From the NCBI GenBank assembly GCA_029549985.1, contig JAKPIB010000025.1, positions 1 through 51,434 on the forward strand: a stretch of 51,434 nucleotides of DNA, read 5' to 3'. This DNA is from Bacillota bacterium. GTDB lineage: Bacteria; Bacillota; Clostridia; Caldicoprobacterales; DTU083. The translations under genes and the position numbers were made by a program. Shown here one piece after another: positions 20,586-45,894 of this stretch; positions within the stretch are counted from its first letter, which is position 1; each line of letters begins with the position of its first letter. Under the pieces are notes generated by a model, which saw only the letters and a program-made list of their open reading frames with translations, ran no database searches and was not told the origin of the DNA.

Positions 20586-20661
20586 GACCCATTAGCTCAG
20601 GAGGTAGAGCACTTGACTTTTAATCAAGGTGTCCGGCGTTCGAATCGCCGATGGGTCACCA
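20586..20661 (+). tRNA. tRNA-Lys (anticodon TTT)
   Basis: Acceptor GACCCAT pairs with ATGGGTC. The anticodon loop is CTTTTAA between TTGA and TCAA arms, and the T loop is GTTCGAATC. CCA is encoded (20659-20661). Confidence 0.97.
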
Positions 20662-20668
20662 CCTTTCT

Positions 20669-20743
20669 GGCCCCTTGGTCAAGTGGTTAAGACATCGCCC
20701 TTTCACGGCGGTAACAGGGGTTCGAATCCCCTAGGGGTCACCA
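20669..20743 (+). tRNA. tRNA-Glu (anticodon TTC)
   Basis: Acceptor GGCCCCT pairs with AGGGGTC (one G-U). The anticodon loop is CTTTCAC and the T loop is GTTCGAATC. CCA is encoded at 20741-20743. Confidence 0.97.
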
Positions 20744-20798
20744 CTTTTGAAAGTTAGGATTTGGAGCTACAGACACTCTGGGTCCTGACTTTCCATAT

Positions 20799-20875
20799 GG
20801 CCCGGTAGTTCAGTTGGTTAGAATGCCAGCCTGTCACGCTGGAGGTCGACGGTTCGAGCCCGTTCCGGGTCGCCA
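20799..20875 (+). tRNA. tRNA-Asp (anticodon GTC)
   Basis: Acceptor GGCCCGG pairs with CCGGGTC. The anticodon loop is CTGTCAC and the T loop is GTTCGAGCC. CCA is encoded at 20873-20875. Confidence 0.97.
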
Positions 20876-20878
20876 TTC

Positions 20879-20954
20879 GCTGGTGTAGCTCAATCGGCAG
20901 AGCAGCTGATTTGTAATCAGCAGGTTAACGGTTCAAGTCCGTTCACCAGCTCCA
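20879..20954 (+). tRNA. tRNA-Thr (anticodon TGT)
   Basis: Acceptor GCTGGTG pairs with CACCAGC. The anticodon loop is TTTGTAA and the T loop is GTTCAAGTC. CCA is encoded at 20952-20954. Only 3 bp after tRNA-Asp. Confidence 0.97.
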
Positions 20955-28221: not shown

Positions 28222-29520
28222 TTGGAAAAACTTCTGATTAACGGTGGCAAGAGATTGACAGGGACTATAAAAGTAGGGGGAGCCAAGAACGCAGCAGTTG
28301 CCATACTGCCTGCTGCACTGTTGTCAGACAGCCCCTGCGTTATCAGTAACCTTCCTTATATAGATGATGTTATAGTAATATCCAGGATCATGGAGCAGTT
28401 GAATGCCAGGGTCGCCATGATCGGGCCCGGCAAGGCGGTAGTAAACGCTACCGGCCAGATCGACTGCAAGGCTACCAGCGACATGATAAAGAAGATGCGC
28501 GGCTCGATCTACCTCCTGGGCGCTCTCCTGGGCAGGGAAGGCAGAGTCGAGATGCTCTTGCCCGGGGGGTGCGAGATAGGTGCCCGCCCGATAGATCAGC
28601 ATATAAAGGGCTTTGAAGCCCTGGGTGCCAGCATCGATATAAGCCACGGCACCATTAAGGCACAGGCTGACAAGCTGGTAGGAGCGGAGATCTATCTGGA
28701 CGTTGTCTCCGTGGGAGCTACCATAAACATAATGCTGGCAGCAGTCAAGGCAGAGGGCATGACTACGATCGTCAATGCAGCAAAGGAGCCCCATGTCGTA
28801 GACGTGGCCAACTTCCTCAATGCCATGGGTGCCAACGTAAAAGGCGCCGGTACAGACACCATTAGGATAAAGGGCGTGGAGAAACTCACCGGCTGCGAGT
28901 ATTCCATCATACCGGATCAGATAGAAGCGGGCACATACATGATAGCAGCCGCTGCCACCGGCGGGGACATAACCGTAAAGGGTGTCATCCCCAAGCATCT
29001 GGAGTCGGTCACAGCCAAGCTGCTTGAAATGGGCATGGAGGTCATCGAAAGGGATGACAGCATCAGAGTAAAGGGAACAGGCAGGCCCAGGAAGGTGACC
29101 ATAAAGACACTTCCCTATCCTGGGTTCCCGACAGATCTGCAGCAGCCAACGACATCTCTGCTCAGCATATGCGACGGCGTAAGTATCATAAACGAAAGCG
29201 TCTGGGAGAGCAGGTTCAGGCATGTTGAAGAGCTCAGGCGAATGGGTGCGGATATAAAGGTTGAGGACCGCATCGCGATCATACAGGGAGTCGAAAAGCT
29301 GACGGGAGCATCGGTCGTCGCTACTGACCTGAGGGCGGGCGTGGCCCTGGTCATAGCCGGGCTCATGGCCGAAGGGCTCACAGAGATAGAGAATGTGCAT
29401 TTCATCGACAGGGGCTATGAGCGCATTGAAGAAAAGCTGGCCGGCCTGGGCGCGGACATCAGAAGAGTGGCTGACGGCGAGGCTGCTTTGAAAGTGGTCA
29501 ACTCGGACGCTGTGGTATAA
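28222..29520 (+). CDS. murA: UDP-N-acetylglucosamine 1-carboxyvinyltransferase
   Basis: Protein of 432 aa, standard length. It catalyses the first committed step of peptidoglycan synthesis, transfer of enolpyruvate from PEP to UDP-GlcNAc. [18 protein letters not shown] is the N-terminal signature. The PEP-binding cysteine is C117 ([11 protein letters not shown]), the same number as in E. coli and the target of fosfomycin. The C-terminal domain has [10 protein letters not shown]. The start must be the TTG at 28222, since an in-frame stop lies at 28204; the SD (AGAGG) is modest, while a much stronger one 30 nt upstream serves a two-codon frame. Confidence 0.96.
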
Positions 29521-29611
29521 CATATAATTATAAAATGGAATCATACTATTTGACATATTGAAGTGTCAGTTAACCGAATACCGGATATAAGCTGATATAA
29601 AGGAGAAAGCC

Positions 29612-29638
29612 ATGAGGAGGATATTCTTAGCTTTTTAA
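29612..29638 (+). CDS. Leader peptide MRRIFLAF of the ABC-F attenuator
   Basis: An ATG 6 nt after AGGAG (29601-29605) opens eight codons and a TAA. Codons 5-8 (Phe-Leu-Ala-Phe) form the 5' arm of a 10-bp helix with 29730-29739, so a ribosome stalled here would change the downstream fold. Short hydrophobic leaders of this kind control antibiotic-induced genes such as msrD and erm. Inferred; no homologue of this peptide is known to me. Confidence 0.6.
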   Translation: MRRIFLAF

Positions 29639-29808
29639 GTTAATACGACCGATAGAGGCGCAGGAGATATCCCCGGCCTCGTTGCCGGGTTGTGAGCCGT
29701 GCTTTTTTGCTGTGCGCCTTTATCCATATAAGCTAAGAACATCGGTTCGAATGGCAGTAATAAGGACAGCTATATCAGTCATCCAAGGCCTATTTATATA
29801 TCGTGATT
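29624..29808 (+). promoter_or_regulatory. Structured attenuator leader upstream of the ABC-F gene
   Basis: Two nested helices are directly visible. TTCTTAGCTT (29624-29633) pairs perfectly with AAGCTAAGAA (29730-29739). Inside it, GATAGAGGCGCA (29651-29662) pairs with TGCGCCTTTATC (29713-29724) with one G-U. CCCGGC/GCCGGG forms an inner hairpin. A candidate antiterminator is CAGTAATA (29755-29762), which can pair over 8 nt with TGTTATTG (29814-29821) in the terminator's left arm. Together with the leader peptide this fits ribosome-mediated transcription attenuation. Confidence 0.6.
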
Positions 29809-29809
29809 G

Positions 29810-29847
29810 AAACTGTTATTGGACGATCGTTCAGTAGCAGTTTTTTT
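29810..29847 (+). terminator. Intrinsic terminator just before the ABC-F gene
   Basis: A 16-bp stem with three G-U pairs (29810-29825 with 29828-29843) ends in seven T residues, 35 bp before the ABC-F start. Nothing but the leader peptide lies upstream for it to terminate since murA, so it is best read as a regulatory terminator. Confidence 0.85.
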
Positions 29848-29882
29848 GTTGGCCGAAGGATGACAGACGGGGAGAGTGAAAT

Positions 29883-31685
29883 ATGGCGCTATTGTTCCAA
29901 TGCATTGATATAAAAAAGGATTTTGGGCTGCAGTCTGTTTTGAAGCAGGTATCCTTTGACATAGAAGAGGGTGAGAGAGTAGGCCTGGTAGGGGAAAACG
30001 GGGCCGGAAAGACGACCCTGGCTGATATCATATATGGCAGCGTCAAGCCTGATGAGGGAAGCATCATCTGGCACAAGAAGGACGTCAGGATTGGCTACCT
30101 GAGGCAGTCAGCCTATTATACCTCCGAAACCCTCGGCGGCCTTCTAAGGGACTGGGGCGTAAAGAAGCTCTTAAACACCTTGACGGACACAGCAGATGGG
30201 CTTGTATCCGAGCTCGCAGGCAGCTGGGGGAATGAGCGGCTTGATGCCTTGAGCGGAGGTGAAAAGACAAAGCTTGCCCTGGCCAGGGTCTGGGCCGACG
30301 AGCCTGACCTGCTCATCCTGGACGAGCCTACGAACCATCTTGATTACAAGGGCGTCAGGTGGCTCATAGAAGAGCTTGCCCGTTTCGCAGGCACGATTTT
30401 GATAATATCCCATGACCGGTACTTTCTGGACAGGACAGCACACTGCATCCTGGAGATAGAGGACGGCAGGATACTGGAATACAGGGGCAACTATTCCTTT
30501 TACCGGGCAGAGAAGAGGAAAAGATATGAGGATATGCTCCATGCCTACAAGGTGCAGGAAAGGTACAAGGAAAAGCTTGCCCAGGAGATAAGGCAGCTTA
30601 GGGAATGGGCGGGCAAAGCCCACAGGGACTCAACCAAAAAGGACAGAAGCTCGGGCGTAAAGATGGGCTTTAAGGAATATCACCGGGTAAAGGCGAAGAA
30701 GCTGGACAAAAGGGTCAAGTCAAAAATCAAGCGGCTTGAAAAGCTTAAGGCCGAAGGGATAGATAAGCCCGTCGAAGAAGCAGGGGTGAAGTTTACCTTT
30801 GAGTACGGGGAGAAAAAAGGCAGGCGGATAATAGAGGCCGTCAATATAAGCAAGAGCTTTGGCAGCAGAGCCTTGTTCAGCGACAGCAGCTTTTACATCC
30901 TGCGGGGCGAAAGGGTAGGCATATTCGGCGAAAACGGCTGCGGTAAAACAACCCTGGTCAAAGCCCTGATAGGGCAGGAAACGGTAGAGGGAGGCCTGTT
31001 TGTTTCGCCGAATGCTGAAATAGGGTACATGAGCCAGGATGTGCTTGATTTCAGCAATAGCGGACAGACAGCCCTTGACCTGTTCGACATGGGCGACAGG
31101 AGGGAGCAGGGGCGGATCCGCACCATGCTTGCTAATTTGGGGTTCACGGCGGACCTTTTGTCCAAGCCTGTATGTGACTTAAGCCTGGGGGAGCAGACCA
31201 GGCTCAAGCTGGCGGGCTTTATATACAGGCAGTGCGATGTGCTTATCCTTGATGAGCCGACCAACCACCTGGATATCCACGCCAGGGAGCAGCTTGAGGA
31301 TGCCCTCCTCCAATATGACGGGACGATCCTGCTGGTGACCCATGACAGGTATATGCTTGAGCAGGTATGTGACAAGCTTCTTGTATTTGAAGGAGGAAAG
31401 ATAGAAAGAATTGAAGGAAGTCCGGCAAGCTATCTGAAAAACTACATAAATGACACTGTGGACACTGTGCATAATGTGGATAAAAAATCGCGAAACAAGA
31501 GCAATGATCCTGCAAAGGATGTGGATAAGCTTGAAAAAATCAAGGCCGAGGAGCTGATGATACTGGAAAACCAGATCATAACGGTCCTCGGCAAGCTAAG
31601 CCTGGCAAAGCCGGGTACGGAGGAATATGAAAAGCTCGACGCCGAATTCAAGGCGCTGATGGCGAGAAAGCAGGAGCTTGGCTAA
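29883..31685 (+). CDS. ABC-F ATPase, antibiotic-resistance (ribosome protection) type
   Basis: Protein of 600 aa with two ABC domains and no membrane segments. The first has Walker A GENGAGKTT (about residue 37), signature LSGGEKTKLALAR (about 123) and DLLILDEPTNHLD. The second has GENGCGKTT (about 349), LSLGEQTRLKLAG and VLILDEPTNHLD. Between them is a long basic linker (about 205-300) containing KAHRDSTKKDRSSG and RVKAKKLDKRVKSKIKRLEK. That linker resembles Lsa, Vga, VmlR and CplR proteins, which displace lincosamides, pleuromutilins or streptogramins from the ribosome. A charged C-terminal extension follows. The attenuator upstream supports drug-inducible expression. Exact drug range unknown. 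Confidence 0.88.
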   Translation: MALLFQCIDIKKDFGLQSVLKQVSFDIEEGERVGLVGENGAGKTTLADIIYGSVKPDEGSIIWHKKDVRIGYLRQSAYYTSETLGGLLRDWGVKKLLNTLTDTADGLVSELAGSWGNERLDALSGGEKTKLALARVWADEPDLLILDEPTNHLDYKGVRWLIEELARFAGTILIISHDRYFLDRTAHCILEIEDGRILEYRGNYSFYRAEKRKRYEDMLHAYKVQERYKEKLAQEIRQLREWAGKAHRDSTKKDRSSGVKMGFKEYHRVKAKKLDKRVKSKIKRLEKLKAEGIDKPVEEAGVKFTFEYGEKKGRRIIEAVNISKSFGSRALFSDSSFYILRGERVGIFGENGCGKTTLVKALIGQETVEGGLFVSPNAEIGYMSQDVLDFSNSGQTALDLFDMGDRREQGRIRTMLANLGFTADLLSKPVCDLSLGEQTRLKLAGFIYRQCDVLILDEPTNHLDIHAREQLEDALLQYDGTILLVTHDRYMLEQVCDKLLVFEGGKIERIEGSPASYLKNYINDTVDTVHNVDKKSRNKSNDPAKDVDKLEKIKAEELMILENQIITVLGKLSLAKPGTEEYEKLDAEFKALMARKQELG

Positions 31686-42736: not shown

Positions 42737-44140
42737 GTGACCAGGACTTACAACCTAACAGACGGCAGCATACTCAAAGCCTTGTTTAAAATCGCCCTCC
42801 CCATTATGGGGACCTCCTTTGTACAAATGGCATACAACATGACAGACATGTTCTGGGTAGGCAAGCTCGGCTCCGGGGCTGTCGCCTCCGTCGGAACTGC
42901 AGGCTTTTTCACATGGCTTGCGGCTGCATTCATACTCATACCCAAGATAGGGGCGGAGGTCGGCGTAGCCCAGGCGGTCGGCAGGGAGAACATATCCGAA
43001 GCGAGGGTATACATAAAGCACAGTATACAGATGGCTGTTTACCTGGGATTGGGATACGGGCTCATCCTTATACTCTTCAGGCATCCCTTGATCGGCTTTT
43101 TCAACCTGGAGGACACAGGGATCATAGAGGATGCGGTCACTTATCTTATGATCGTGTCCGTCGGGCTCGTCTTTTATTTCGTTGCCCCGGTCTTTACTGC
43201 CATGTTCAACGGGTACGGGGACAGCAGGACACCCTTCCTCATCAATACCACCGGGCTTGTTGTAAATATGATCCTTGACCCTGTATTGATCTTCGGCATC
43301 GGCCCCTTCCCCAGGCTGGGGGTTTTGGGCGCTGCTTTGGCTACCGTTATCGCCCAGGCTGTCGTGATCGTAGTGTTTGTAGCAGTGACCCCGAGGAGAC
43401 CGGAGCTTTTCTCAGACCTGAAGCTCCTATCGGCTCCCAGCGCAGGCTATGTCGCCAGGATAGTCAGGCTGGGCCTGCCTGCAGGGCTGCAAAGCGGGCT
43501 GTTCACCATATTTGCCATGATCATTGCAAGGATCATCGCCAAATGGGGGCCTGTGCCGATAGCTGTGCAGAAGGTGGGTTCTCAGATCGAGGCGATCTCC
43601 TGGATGACAGCGGGTGGGTTCCAGACGGCTATGAGCACCTTTGTCGGGCAAAACTATGGGGCAAACAAGTGGAAGAGGGTGGCCAACGGGTATTTTGTGG
43701 GAATGGCGATCATGTCCATAGTCGGTATTGTGGCTTCTGCTCTTCTGATCCTTGCCGCAAGGCCCCTGTTTTCGATCTTCATTCAGGAAGATGAAGCCAT
43801 CAGGGAGGGTATAGTATACCTGCGGATACTGGGGCTTTCACAGCTCTTTATGTGCCTTGAGTCCACTTCCGCCGGAGCATTCAACGGGCTTGGCAAAACC
43901 GTTCCTCCGTCGGTGGTGGGCATAGTGTTCAATGCCCTCAGGATCCCTGCCTCGCTCATGCTGTCTTCGACTGCTCTCGGCCTCCACGGGGTATGGTGGG
44001 CCATCAGCGTATCCAGCATATTCAAGGGTACAGTGCTGTCTGCGTGGTACATGGCTACCCTGACGAAAAATGCAGAAATAACACCTGTGATGATGTATAT
44101 CAGAAACAAATGTAGTGCGAATGTTGAAAAAAATGCTTGA
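42737..44140 (+). CDS. MATE family efflux transporter
   Basis: Protein of 467 aa with twelve predicted membrane helices. The first half starts TDGSILKALFKIALPIMGTS and has QMAYNMTDMFWVGKLGS, a typical MATE N-lobe. The second half begins near LGLPAGLQSGLFTIFAMI and includes FVGQNYGANKWKR. It should extrude cationic drugs or metabolites with Na+ or H+. The start is GTG at 42737 behind an AAGGGAAAGG stretch. The stop codon overlaps the -35 of the riboswitch promoter. Confidence 0.92.
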   Translation: MTRTYNLTDGSILKALFKIALPIMGTSFVQMAYNMTDMFWVGKLGSGAVASVGTAGFFTWLAAAFILIPKIGAEVGVAQAVGRENISEARVYIKHSIQMAVYLGLGYGLILILFRHPLIGFFNLEDTGIIEDAVTYLMIVSVGLVFYFVAPVFTAMFNGYGDSRTPFLINTTGLVVNMILDPVLIFGIGPFPRLGVLGAALATVIAQAVVIVVFVAVTPRRPELFSDLKLLSAPSAGYVARIVRLGLPAGLQSGLFTIFAMIIARIIAKWGPVPIAVQKVGSQIEAISWMTAGGFQTAMSTFVGQNYGANKWKRVANGYFVGMAIMSIVGIVASALLILAARPLFSIFIQEDEAIREGIVYLRILGLSQLFMCLESTSAGAFNGLGKTVPPSVVGIVFNALRIPASLMLSSTALGLHGVWWAISVSSIFKGTVLSAWYMATLTKNAEITPVMMYIRNKCSANVEKNA

Positions 44141-44207: not shown

Positions 44208-44305
44208 TAAATATGTAAATAGCAAATCTATCGAAAGGTAGAGACGCAAAGCCACAGGTCTAATTATAGCATTTGCTATACATGACAGCTGGGTTGCCAT
44301 ATTAT
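44208..44305 (+). ncRNA. Cyclic-di-GMP-I (GEMM) riboswitch
   Basis: Core elements of the class I aptamer are present in order: P1 AATATG (44210-44215) with CATATT (44298-44303); P2 CTATC-GAAA-GGTAG (44228-44241) with the GNRA tetraloop; the conserved GACGCAAAGCCACAGGTC (44243-44260); a P3 hairpin TATAGC-ATTT-GCTATA (44265-44280); and GACAGCTGGGTTGCC (44284-44298), including the tetraloop receptor. It senses c-di-GMP and should control the transcript for the secreted protein at 44392. Confidence 0.92.
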
Positions 44306-44341: not shown

Positions 44342-44391
44342 ATTTTATGGTATGCGTCCCGGATAAAAATCAAAATGGGGAGGTATTATCC

Positions 44392-44844
44392 ATGAAAAAG
44401 CTGTCCGTAATGCTGCTGGTGATGGCATTAGTATTTGCGGCCCTTGCTCCGACTGCTTTTGCAGCGGTGTCAGAATACGACCAGGTTCAGGATTTGGTAG
44501 ATAAGGCCAATGCAAAGATCGAAAAAGCGGTTGGAGCAGCGATCGAAGAAGCGGACAGGGTGACGGAAAAGTATCTTGAGGACCTTGATAAGCTGGAGAG
44601 CAAGAAGGAAGCAGGCATCTTCGATTCAAACAAGTATGAGCAGGAGAAAGCCAGGCTTGCAGCCAAATATGAGCAGAAGATCGACAAGATAATCGACAAG
44701 CTGGTCGAAAAAACGGGTAAAGTTGCTGCCAAAGCAATAAATGATGCAGTAAAAAAGGGATTTGTCGTGATATGCGAAGAGGTGGAGGTTGAAATAGCCG
44801 GCCGGACAGTACTTATCGATCCATTGAGAATAGCTGATTTCTGA
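44392..44844 (+). CDS. Small secreted helical protein under c-di-GMP control
   Basis: Protein of 150 aa. A clear signal peptide (MKKLSVMLLVMALVFAALA ... AFA) should be cleaved near residue 24. The mature part is mostly charged amphipathic helix (residues 30-115) rich in K, E, D and A, likely a coiled coil. It ends in a short strand-like segment (EEVEVEIAGRTVLIDPLRI). No enzyme motif. GGGGAGG is 8 nt before the ATG. Flanked by riboswitch/terminator on one side and a terminator on the other. A role in attachment, matrix or the cell surface is plausible because c-di-GMP controls such functions, but this is inference. Confidence 0.8.
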   Translation: MKKLSVMLLVMALVFAALAPTAFAAVSEYDQVQDLVDKANAKIEKAVGAAIEEADRVTEKYLEDLDKLESKKEAGIFDSNKYEQEKARLAAKYEQKIDKIIDKLVEKTGKVAAKAINDAVKKGFVVICEEVEVEIAGRTVLIDPLRIADF

Positions 44845-44891: not shown

Positions 44892-44985
44892 ATTTGTGCT
44901 GCAAGATATTTTTGAAGGTTATTCTCAAGATTTGTAGAAATAAAGCTAAATGATCAGTTCATGAATTGTAACTATGGAGGGCATT

Positions 44986-45894
44986 GTGAATACAGGATTT
45001 TATATTGGGGCTGAAAATGAATGCCTTGAGAAATCAGTTCAGAGCTCCGGCTCACTGGACCTGCTCGGCAAGGGTGACGGTGCGGAGGTAATGCTTCAAA
45101 GGATAAAGGCAGACAAAACGGTGTTTATAGAACCGGGTGAGCCCAGCGAGCTCATGGAGTTTTTCTATATACTCGATGGAGTTATCGAAGTAGAGCATGA
45201 CGACAAAATAACCATGCTGAAACGGGGCGATTATTTTTATTCCCACAAGCTCAAGCAGACCATACAGTTCAGGACCAAGACGGATGTTTCCTTGATTTAT
45301 TTCACGACCCATCCGGTATTCTACTATCTCAGTGCCACGATAAAGGAGCTGAAGGCACTGGCTGACAAGGTCTCTGAAAAGGACCGGTATATCCTGGAGC
45401 ATAACAGGCGCGTCAGGGACTATGCATTGAAAATAGCCGGCAAGCTGAACCTGTCTAAGGAAAGGAGCGAGAACCTGGCCTTTGCCTCCATGTTTCATGA
45501 TCTGGGCAAGATAAACATACCGGATGAGATACTCAACAAGCCTGGTAAGCTGACGGAGGAGGAGTTTGAGCTTATCAAGCAGCATCCCGCTGACGGCAGC
45601 AAGCTGGTCCAGAAGACATATTACGAAGGCATTGCAGACATAATCCATCAGCATCATGAAAGGCTTGATGGTTCGGGATATCCTCAGGGTCTGAAGGGTG
45701 ACGAGATACTGCTGGAGGCAAAGATCATAGCGGTTGCGGATACATATGATGCAATGACCATCGACAGGGCATATAGAGGCAGAGTATCGCCGCAGGAGGC
45801 GGTGGATGAGCTTATCAGTATGAAAGGCATCTTTTATGATGAAAAAGTGGTCGATGCATTTGTTCAGGTTTTAAAAGAGGAGAATATAATATAG
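44986..45894 (+). CDS. Cupin/HD-GYP domain protein (putative c-di-GMP phosphodiesterase)
   Basis: Protein of about 302 aa. The N-terminal 110 residues form a cupin-like beta-barrel (FIEPGEPSELMEFFYILDGV, then MLKRGDYFYS), probably a ligand sensor. The C-terminal HD-GYP domain has the metal motif FHDLGKINIPDEILNKPGKL, then HQHHERLDGSGYP with an intact GYP and AKIIAVADTYDAMTIDRAY. HD-GYP enzymes degrade c-di-GMP. GTG 44986 is 5 nt after GGAGG; an ATG at 44974 precedes that SD and is unlikely. It adjoins the c-di-GMP riboswitch module and leads a likely operon with the ECF and esterase genes (15-bp and 20-bp gaps). Confidence 0.88.
   Translation: MNTGFYIGAENECLEKSVQSSGSLDLLGKGDGAEVMLQRIKADKTVFIEPGEPSELMEFFYILDGVIEVEHDDKITMLKRGDYFYSHKLKQTIQFRTKTDVSLIYFTTHPVFYYLSATIKELKALADKVSEKDRYILEHNRRVRDYALKIAGKLNLSKERSENLAFASMFHDLGKINIPDEILNKPGKLTEEEFELIKQHPADGSKLVQKTYYEGIADIIHQHHERLDGSGYPQGLKGDEILLEAKIIAVADTYDAMTIDRAYRGRVSPQEAVDELISMKGIFYDEKVVDAFVQVLKEENII

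Follow-up and report, generated by a model that had tools for sequence, protein, structure and literature searches.

The window, the whole stretch of 51,434 nucleotides of clostridial DNA that was analyzed, contains a gene for an ARE ABC-F ribosome-protection protein, and the RNA upstream of this gene is probably a ribosome-sensing transcription attenuator that follows the logic of vmlR and cplR. The vmlR leader of Bacillus subtilis consists of an anti-antiterminator (AAT) that bears an upstream open reading frame (uORF), an antiterminator and a terminator, which together precede an ARE ABC-F gene (PMC9226507). The cplR leader of Clostridioides difficile and its relatives employs both transcription and translation attenuation and responds to PLSA drugs (PMC10201436). 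The first-pass annotation had proposed a leader-peptide transcription attenuator in front of the ABC-F gene, with a leader helix and an antiterminator that exclude each other, and this proposal is supported by the computed switch and by conservation in relatives. The result is a model at the nucleotide level, backed by covariation, in which an uncharacterised clostridial lineage would enable ribosome protection only under drug.

The target gene and the parts of its leader

The ABC-F protein has the two ABC domains and the ribosome-protection linker of the VmlR2 group of ARE ABC-F proteins, with a score of 459.8 bits against NCBIfam NF000355 (cut-off 380). Its closest solved relative in the PDB is VmlR2 (8BUU, E 4e-162; the structure deposited with PMC10201436), to which it aligns over residues 9-521 and again over the C-terminal residues 554-599; the match to VmlR (6ha8) has an E value of 7e-117. 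Its scores are below the NCBIfam exception cut-offs for Vga (359/725 bits), Msr (334/680), Lsa (286/750) and CplR (311/780). The Shine-Dalgarno (SD) sequence of the gene, at about 29869-29876, follows the T run and is part of neither the terminator nor the antiterminator.

Table 1. Elements of the leader and the gene that follows it, with positions in the window.
Feature	Position	Strand	Basis
Leader Shine-Dalgarno sequence, AAAGGAG	29599-29605	+	Sequence
Leader ORF, 8 codons, MRRIFLAF	29612-29638	+	Sequence; ATG AGG AGG ATA TTC TTA GCT TTT TAA
Strand 1, the 5' strand of the AAT, within the leader codons	29624-29633	+	Pairing and covariation
Insert hairpin, 12-bp stem 29651-29662:29713-29724	29651-29724	+	Sequence; neither its sequence nor its length conserved
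Strand 2 (middle strand), partner of strand 1 or of both terminator arms	29730-29758	+	Conserved in L019
Antiterminator, 23 bp	29732-29838	+	Duplex energy, switch calculation
Intrinsic terminator, 16-bp stem and T7	29809-29847	+	Sequence, covariation
ARE ABC-F ribosome-protection protein, 600 aa	29883-31685	+	NCBIfam NF000355, PDB matches

All of the parts listed in the first-pass annotation (SD, leader, 10-bp helix, nested 12-bp helix and 16-bp terminator with seven Ts) were found where it had placed them (Table 1). A short uORF with a good SD lies upstream of an ARE ABC-F gene and an intrinsic terminator precedes that gene, as in attenuators of the vmlR/cplR type. The outer, or leader, helix joins TTCTTAGCTT in strand 1 to AAGCTAAGAA at 29730-29739 with 10 of 10 positions paired, and the helix nested within it has 12 pairs, of which one is G-U. 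A second contact between the two sides, 29751-29755 with 29609-29613, spans the leader start codon. The terminator stem (29809-29844) has 16 pairs and a 4-nt loop, and its T run (29841-29847) ends 35 nt before the ATG at 29883. Folding of the RNA from 29590 to 29885 gave -95.3 kcal/mol (z -3.8), a stability equaled by 1 of 200 shuffles. A scan of the element against Rfam 15 gave no match at or above a gathering threshold, the sole match being one by chance (E 3.4). The insert hairpin was considered as a repeat, which was ruled out by its single copy in the genome. Another small ORF, MAVIRTAISVIQGLFIYRD, is found at 29751-29810 on the + strand; it has no good SD, and its start lies inside the antiterminator strand.

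Conservation and covariation among relatives

The family of the source genome comprises 13 genomes, and the gene is present in 11 of them. The terminator is kept in ten further ABC-F homologues of the same family, nine of which (L010-L017 and L019, with ABC-F proteins 58-87% identical) also keep the leader, the middle strand and their pairings; in the tenth, L018, the terminator is present and the leader was not resolved. In searches with a covariance model of the terminator, every sampled family genome yielded exactly one copy, always preceding the ABC-F gene. A match at L052 was judged to be due to chance, as the stretch examined shows no leader. When the window is aligned with its congener L019, the leader, including the identical SD AAAGGAGAAAGCC, the middle strand and the terminator stand out as conserved islands separated by unconserved stretches, a pattern that is more telling than the fold stability of one sequence. 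The homologous leaders read MRKIFLAA, MRICFLAG, MRNCFLA, MRICFLAS, MRNCSLAG, MRNCFLAE, MRISFLAR and MRICFSVR. Across the family, the insert is 44-132 nt and the second spacer 48-226 nt long, and because these lengths vary so widely, neither is a fixed part of the element. The first-pass annotation had called the roughly 170 nt between leader and terminator unusual, but the size of the insert varies freely and is not a conserved property. The leader helix is also present in more distant ABC-F loci, and inspection of L024, L025 and L033 gave no clear leader. The search of viral contigs returned no relative of the element, and that of plasmids one distant copy, on a Paenibacillus megaplasmid.

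In the leader helix, over 15 homologues, 89% of the cells are paired and 8 of 12 pairs are altered on both sides, figures to be read with the caveat that strand 2 was picked by its complementarity to the leader, which inflates the paired percentage and can flatter compensatory changes. Despite this selection, the pairs sit at the same place in every leader. The covariation score of 24 cells, against 9.1 expected, was reached by none of 500 shuffles, and the covariation far exceeds that of any slid register in the same 15 homologues. The terminator covaries at five pairs over 11 homologues. In most of the family, the leader codons (TGTTTCTTAGC) resemble the right arm of the terminator (TGTTCATTAGC), and either of them can pair with the middle strand (GCTAAGGAACA); L010 has joint changes in all three strands (TGTTTCTCAG, CTGAGGGATA and TGTTTCTCAGC). 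Shuffles of single sequences, which compare the leader with the whole downstream stretch, were weak at many loci, and covariation and targeted duplex tests were used in their place. By covariation, the uORF is embedded in the anti-antiterminator helix, as in the vmlR/cplR type. The first-pass annotation had pointed to a covariance comparison with the ABC-F upstream regions of relatives as a check, and in this comparison the leader and its pairings are conserved and both leader helix and terminator covary.

The proximity of murA, which ends at 29520 just upstream of the element, and a promoter search of the + strand between murA and the leader that gave no clear candidate would both fit an ordinary murA terminator or a constitutive brake, with the short ORF an accident. 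However, the SD, leader, strand 2 and antiterminator are conserved, the strands covary and the element is tied to the ABC-F gene at one copy per genome. The same element also occurs elsewhere before a GNAT gene, with no murA within the 6 kb examined, and a murA terminator or simple brake is highly improbable.

Predicted competition between antiterminator and terminator

The antiterminator consists of an outer half (29732-35:29835-38, 29737-40:29829-32, 29741-44:29824-27 and 29747-48:29822-23) and an inner half (29750-58:29812-20). The first-pass annotation had named the strand 29755-29762 as a partner of the left arm of the terminator, which is close to the inner helix and partly right, but it had missed the outer half, in which 29732-29748 pairs with the loop and right arm (29822-29838). 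In the window, the duplex has an energy of -24.3 kcal/mol, whereas shuffling the middle strand gives -11.1 +/- 2.8 (0/300); the duplex is also stronger than the terminator hairpin at -16.2 kcal/mol. The antiterminator beats the shuffles at all ten family loci tested, with z from -2.8 to -6.1 and 0/300 in eight of them. Permutation of partners among ten groups gave 0.0004 for the inner and outer halves together, a test in which not every alternative is beaten because the sequences are alike; the outer half by itself did not pass (0.16). In the distant ABC-F groups 4, 6 and 8, the antiterminator is weak or absent in the duplex test (z near 0), but the leader helix is present.

The switch was calculated from partition functions of a transcript exposed to 29838, which places the polymerase almost at the last bases of the T run, on the assumption that it hides about 9 nt. 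With the leader free, the leader helix forms with a probability of 0.96, the terminator with 0.90 and the antiterminator with 0.01-0.02. When the leader is masked by a ribosome with the AUG in its P site, the terminator drops to 0.05 and the antiterminator rises to 0.86-0.90. The antiterminator is thus, by computation, exclusive with both the AAT and the terminator, as in the vmlR/cplR type. The magnitude of the switch, 19.4 pairs, was reached by none of 150 linker shuffles. Masking favors the antiterminator in nine of the ten family loci and at both GNAT loci, with a partial switch in L013; L012 and L019 show some antiterminator even when the leader is free. When the whole terminator of the window is exposed at equilibrium, it wins by about 5 kcal/mol even with the leader masked, and the decision must therefore be kinetic, with the antiterminator forming first during transcription. 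The inner half, which pairs with the left arm, can precede synthesis of the right arm and so suits co-transcriptional capture.

The model suggested by these calculations is as follows. Without drug, strand 1 would pair with strand 2 to form the AAT, the terminator would form and RNA polymerase would halt at about 29847, before the ABC-F gene. With drug, we infer that a ribosome stalls on the first leader codons, where its front edge would cover strand 1. The freed strand 2 would capture the left terminator arm first and the right one second, read-through would rise and transcription would enter the ABC-F gene, whose product would clear the drug from the ribosomes. The inducing drugs would presumably be pleuromutilins, lincosamides or streptogramins A.

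Such a switch would respond to any ribosome that is slow on the first codons, and the leader might instead sense a general slowing of translation through starvation, cold or tRNA loss. Ribosome assembly defects also induce vmlR (PMC9226507), and the AGG arginine codons at positions 2 and 3 might be slow. However, the gene downstream encodes a ribosome-protection ABC-F, and the homologues differ in codon 2 (AGG, CGG, TTC, ATT and CGC), which leaves sensing of general slowing improbable compared to that of a drug.

Probable ribosome position and relation to known leaders

The first-pass annotation had placed the stall on Phe-Leu-Ala-Phe, a claim that the homologues do not support. The core TTCTTA starts 11-15 nt past the AUG in 20 of 20 leaders scanned, but the homologues translate it in all three frames, giving Phe-Leu, Val-Leu or Ser-stop, and in L010 FLA has become FSV along with its pairing partners. 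It is therefore the nucleotides that are conserved and not the peptide, and residues 4-8 are best regarded as a side effect of RNA pairing. Reading frame thus makes it possible to tell RNA constraint and peptide constraint apart in a leader ORF; confusing the two is a common trap with leader peptides.

A drug-dependent elongation arrest on the nascent ..FLA(F) peptide, stalling late as in the erm and msrD leaders, would account for the FLA in most family leaders, and a ribosome on codons 5-7 would cover strand 1 as well. It is nevertheless unlikely, given that residues 4-8 vary (IFLAF, CFLAG, CFLA, CSLAG, SFLAR and CFSVR) together with their RNA partner, that homologues read the same nucleotides in other frames (VLN, VLK, RS-stop and CS-stop) and that the leaders have no conserved arrest sequence of the macrolide type. 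As in vmlR and cplR, the likelier trigger would be a ribosome held on codons 1-3, since the position of TTCTTA relative to the AUG points there. The initiation toeprint on vmlR is found 16 nt past the A of the AUG, and an AUG-bound ribosome covers to about +16 (PMC9226507). In CplR-like relatives, the uORF has three codons and its stop is immediately followed by the pairing strand, which is as far from the AUG as it is here (judged by eye), and stalling at codons 1-3 would explain both the 8-codon and the 3-codon designs.

The element shares with vmlR the uORF in the AAT, the antiterminator, the terminator, a related ARE ABC-F target and, by prediction, the release of the antiterminator by a start-held ribosome. 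However, vmlR has a three-codon uORF (MIN) and a hairpin, SL-4, that sequesters the SD (PMC9226507), whereas in the present leader eight codons run through the pairing strand and the SD of the gene is free. cplR is similar in its short uORF (M-R-I/M-R-M) and two hairpins, but its terminator holds the SD of the gene (PMC10201436). The cplR-like relatives found here place the pairing strand at the same distance from the AUG, but their antiterminator strand pairs with the left arm (L054-L064, by eye), whereas both arms are captured in the present leader. The target protein is closest to VmlR2, but the vmlR2 uORF, MK[L/Q], differs in length and sequence (PMC10201436). msrD likewise represents leader-peptide transcription attenuation of an ABC-F, by a macrolide-specific elongation arrest within the peptide (PMC10314930) for which there is no evidence here.

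The 8-codon leader differs from the three-codon uORFs (MIN, MR[I/M] and MK[L/Q]), which are a trait of the described vmlR/cplR members and not of the mechanism; its first three codons are MRR, with MRI, MRN and MRK in relatives. There is no sequestration of the main-gene SD, and hence no such translation-attenuation layer. What is new is the 8-codon uORF running through the pairing strand, the capture of both terminator arms and the unsequestered SD; the logic was already known. No description of this leader was found in the part of the literature that was searched. Separately, CplR-like ABC-F relatives at L054-L067 have 3-codon uORFs (MFN, MRK, MKN, MRQ and MRN) directly followed by a pairing strand, and a terminator that contains the SD of the gene, as published for cplR.

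The terminator model also matches genome G202 (L053 and L069, the latter at G202:C65:88500-94500), where an SD, a leader MPVVLN, a helix of GGTTGTTCTTAAC with GTTAAGAACAACGG and a terminator lie upstream of a gene for a 279-aa GNAT acetyltransferase (PF13527). In a second species of the same genus, G137 (L074, 89% identical), this leader recurs with substitutions, and the antiterminator test was passed at both loci (0/300 each). The more distant GNAT homologues L076 and L077 were without the element. Tentatively, these loci may belong to a leader class that is widespread in clostridia and has leader codons mimicking the terminator's right arm, which would let a single middle strand unzip both arms. 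It would act as a movable drug-sensing module for protective genes of different kinds, with ABC-F genes in most lineages and a GNAT gene in at least two species of one genus. From the switch at the GNAT gene one would predict a so far undescribed inducible gene, whose product may act on a ribosome-targeting drug.

Elsewhere in the window, a BlaR1-like M56 peptidase gene and a penicillinase-repressor-like regulator (PF05569, PF03965; 31699-33572, - strand) lie in convergent orientation to the ABC-F gene, with no beta-lactamase noticed beside the pair. A cluster of four tRNA genes is found at 20586-20951 on the + strand (Rfam). A c-di-GMP-I riboswitch (RF01051, 81.5 bits) at 44211-44301 on the + strand precedes a 165-aa ORF (44347-44844), with an ORF carrying an HD-type motif after it (44974-45894) and a MATE-like efflux ORF before it (42737-44140), all ORF labels being assigned by eye.
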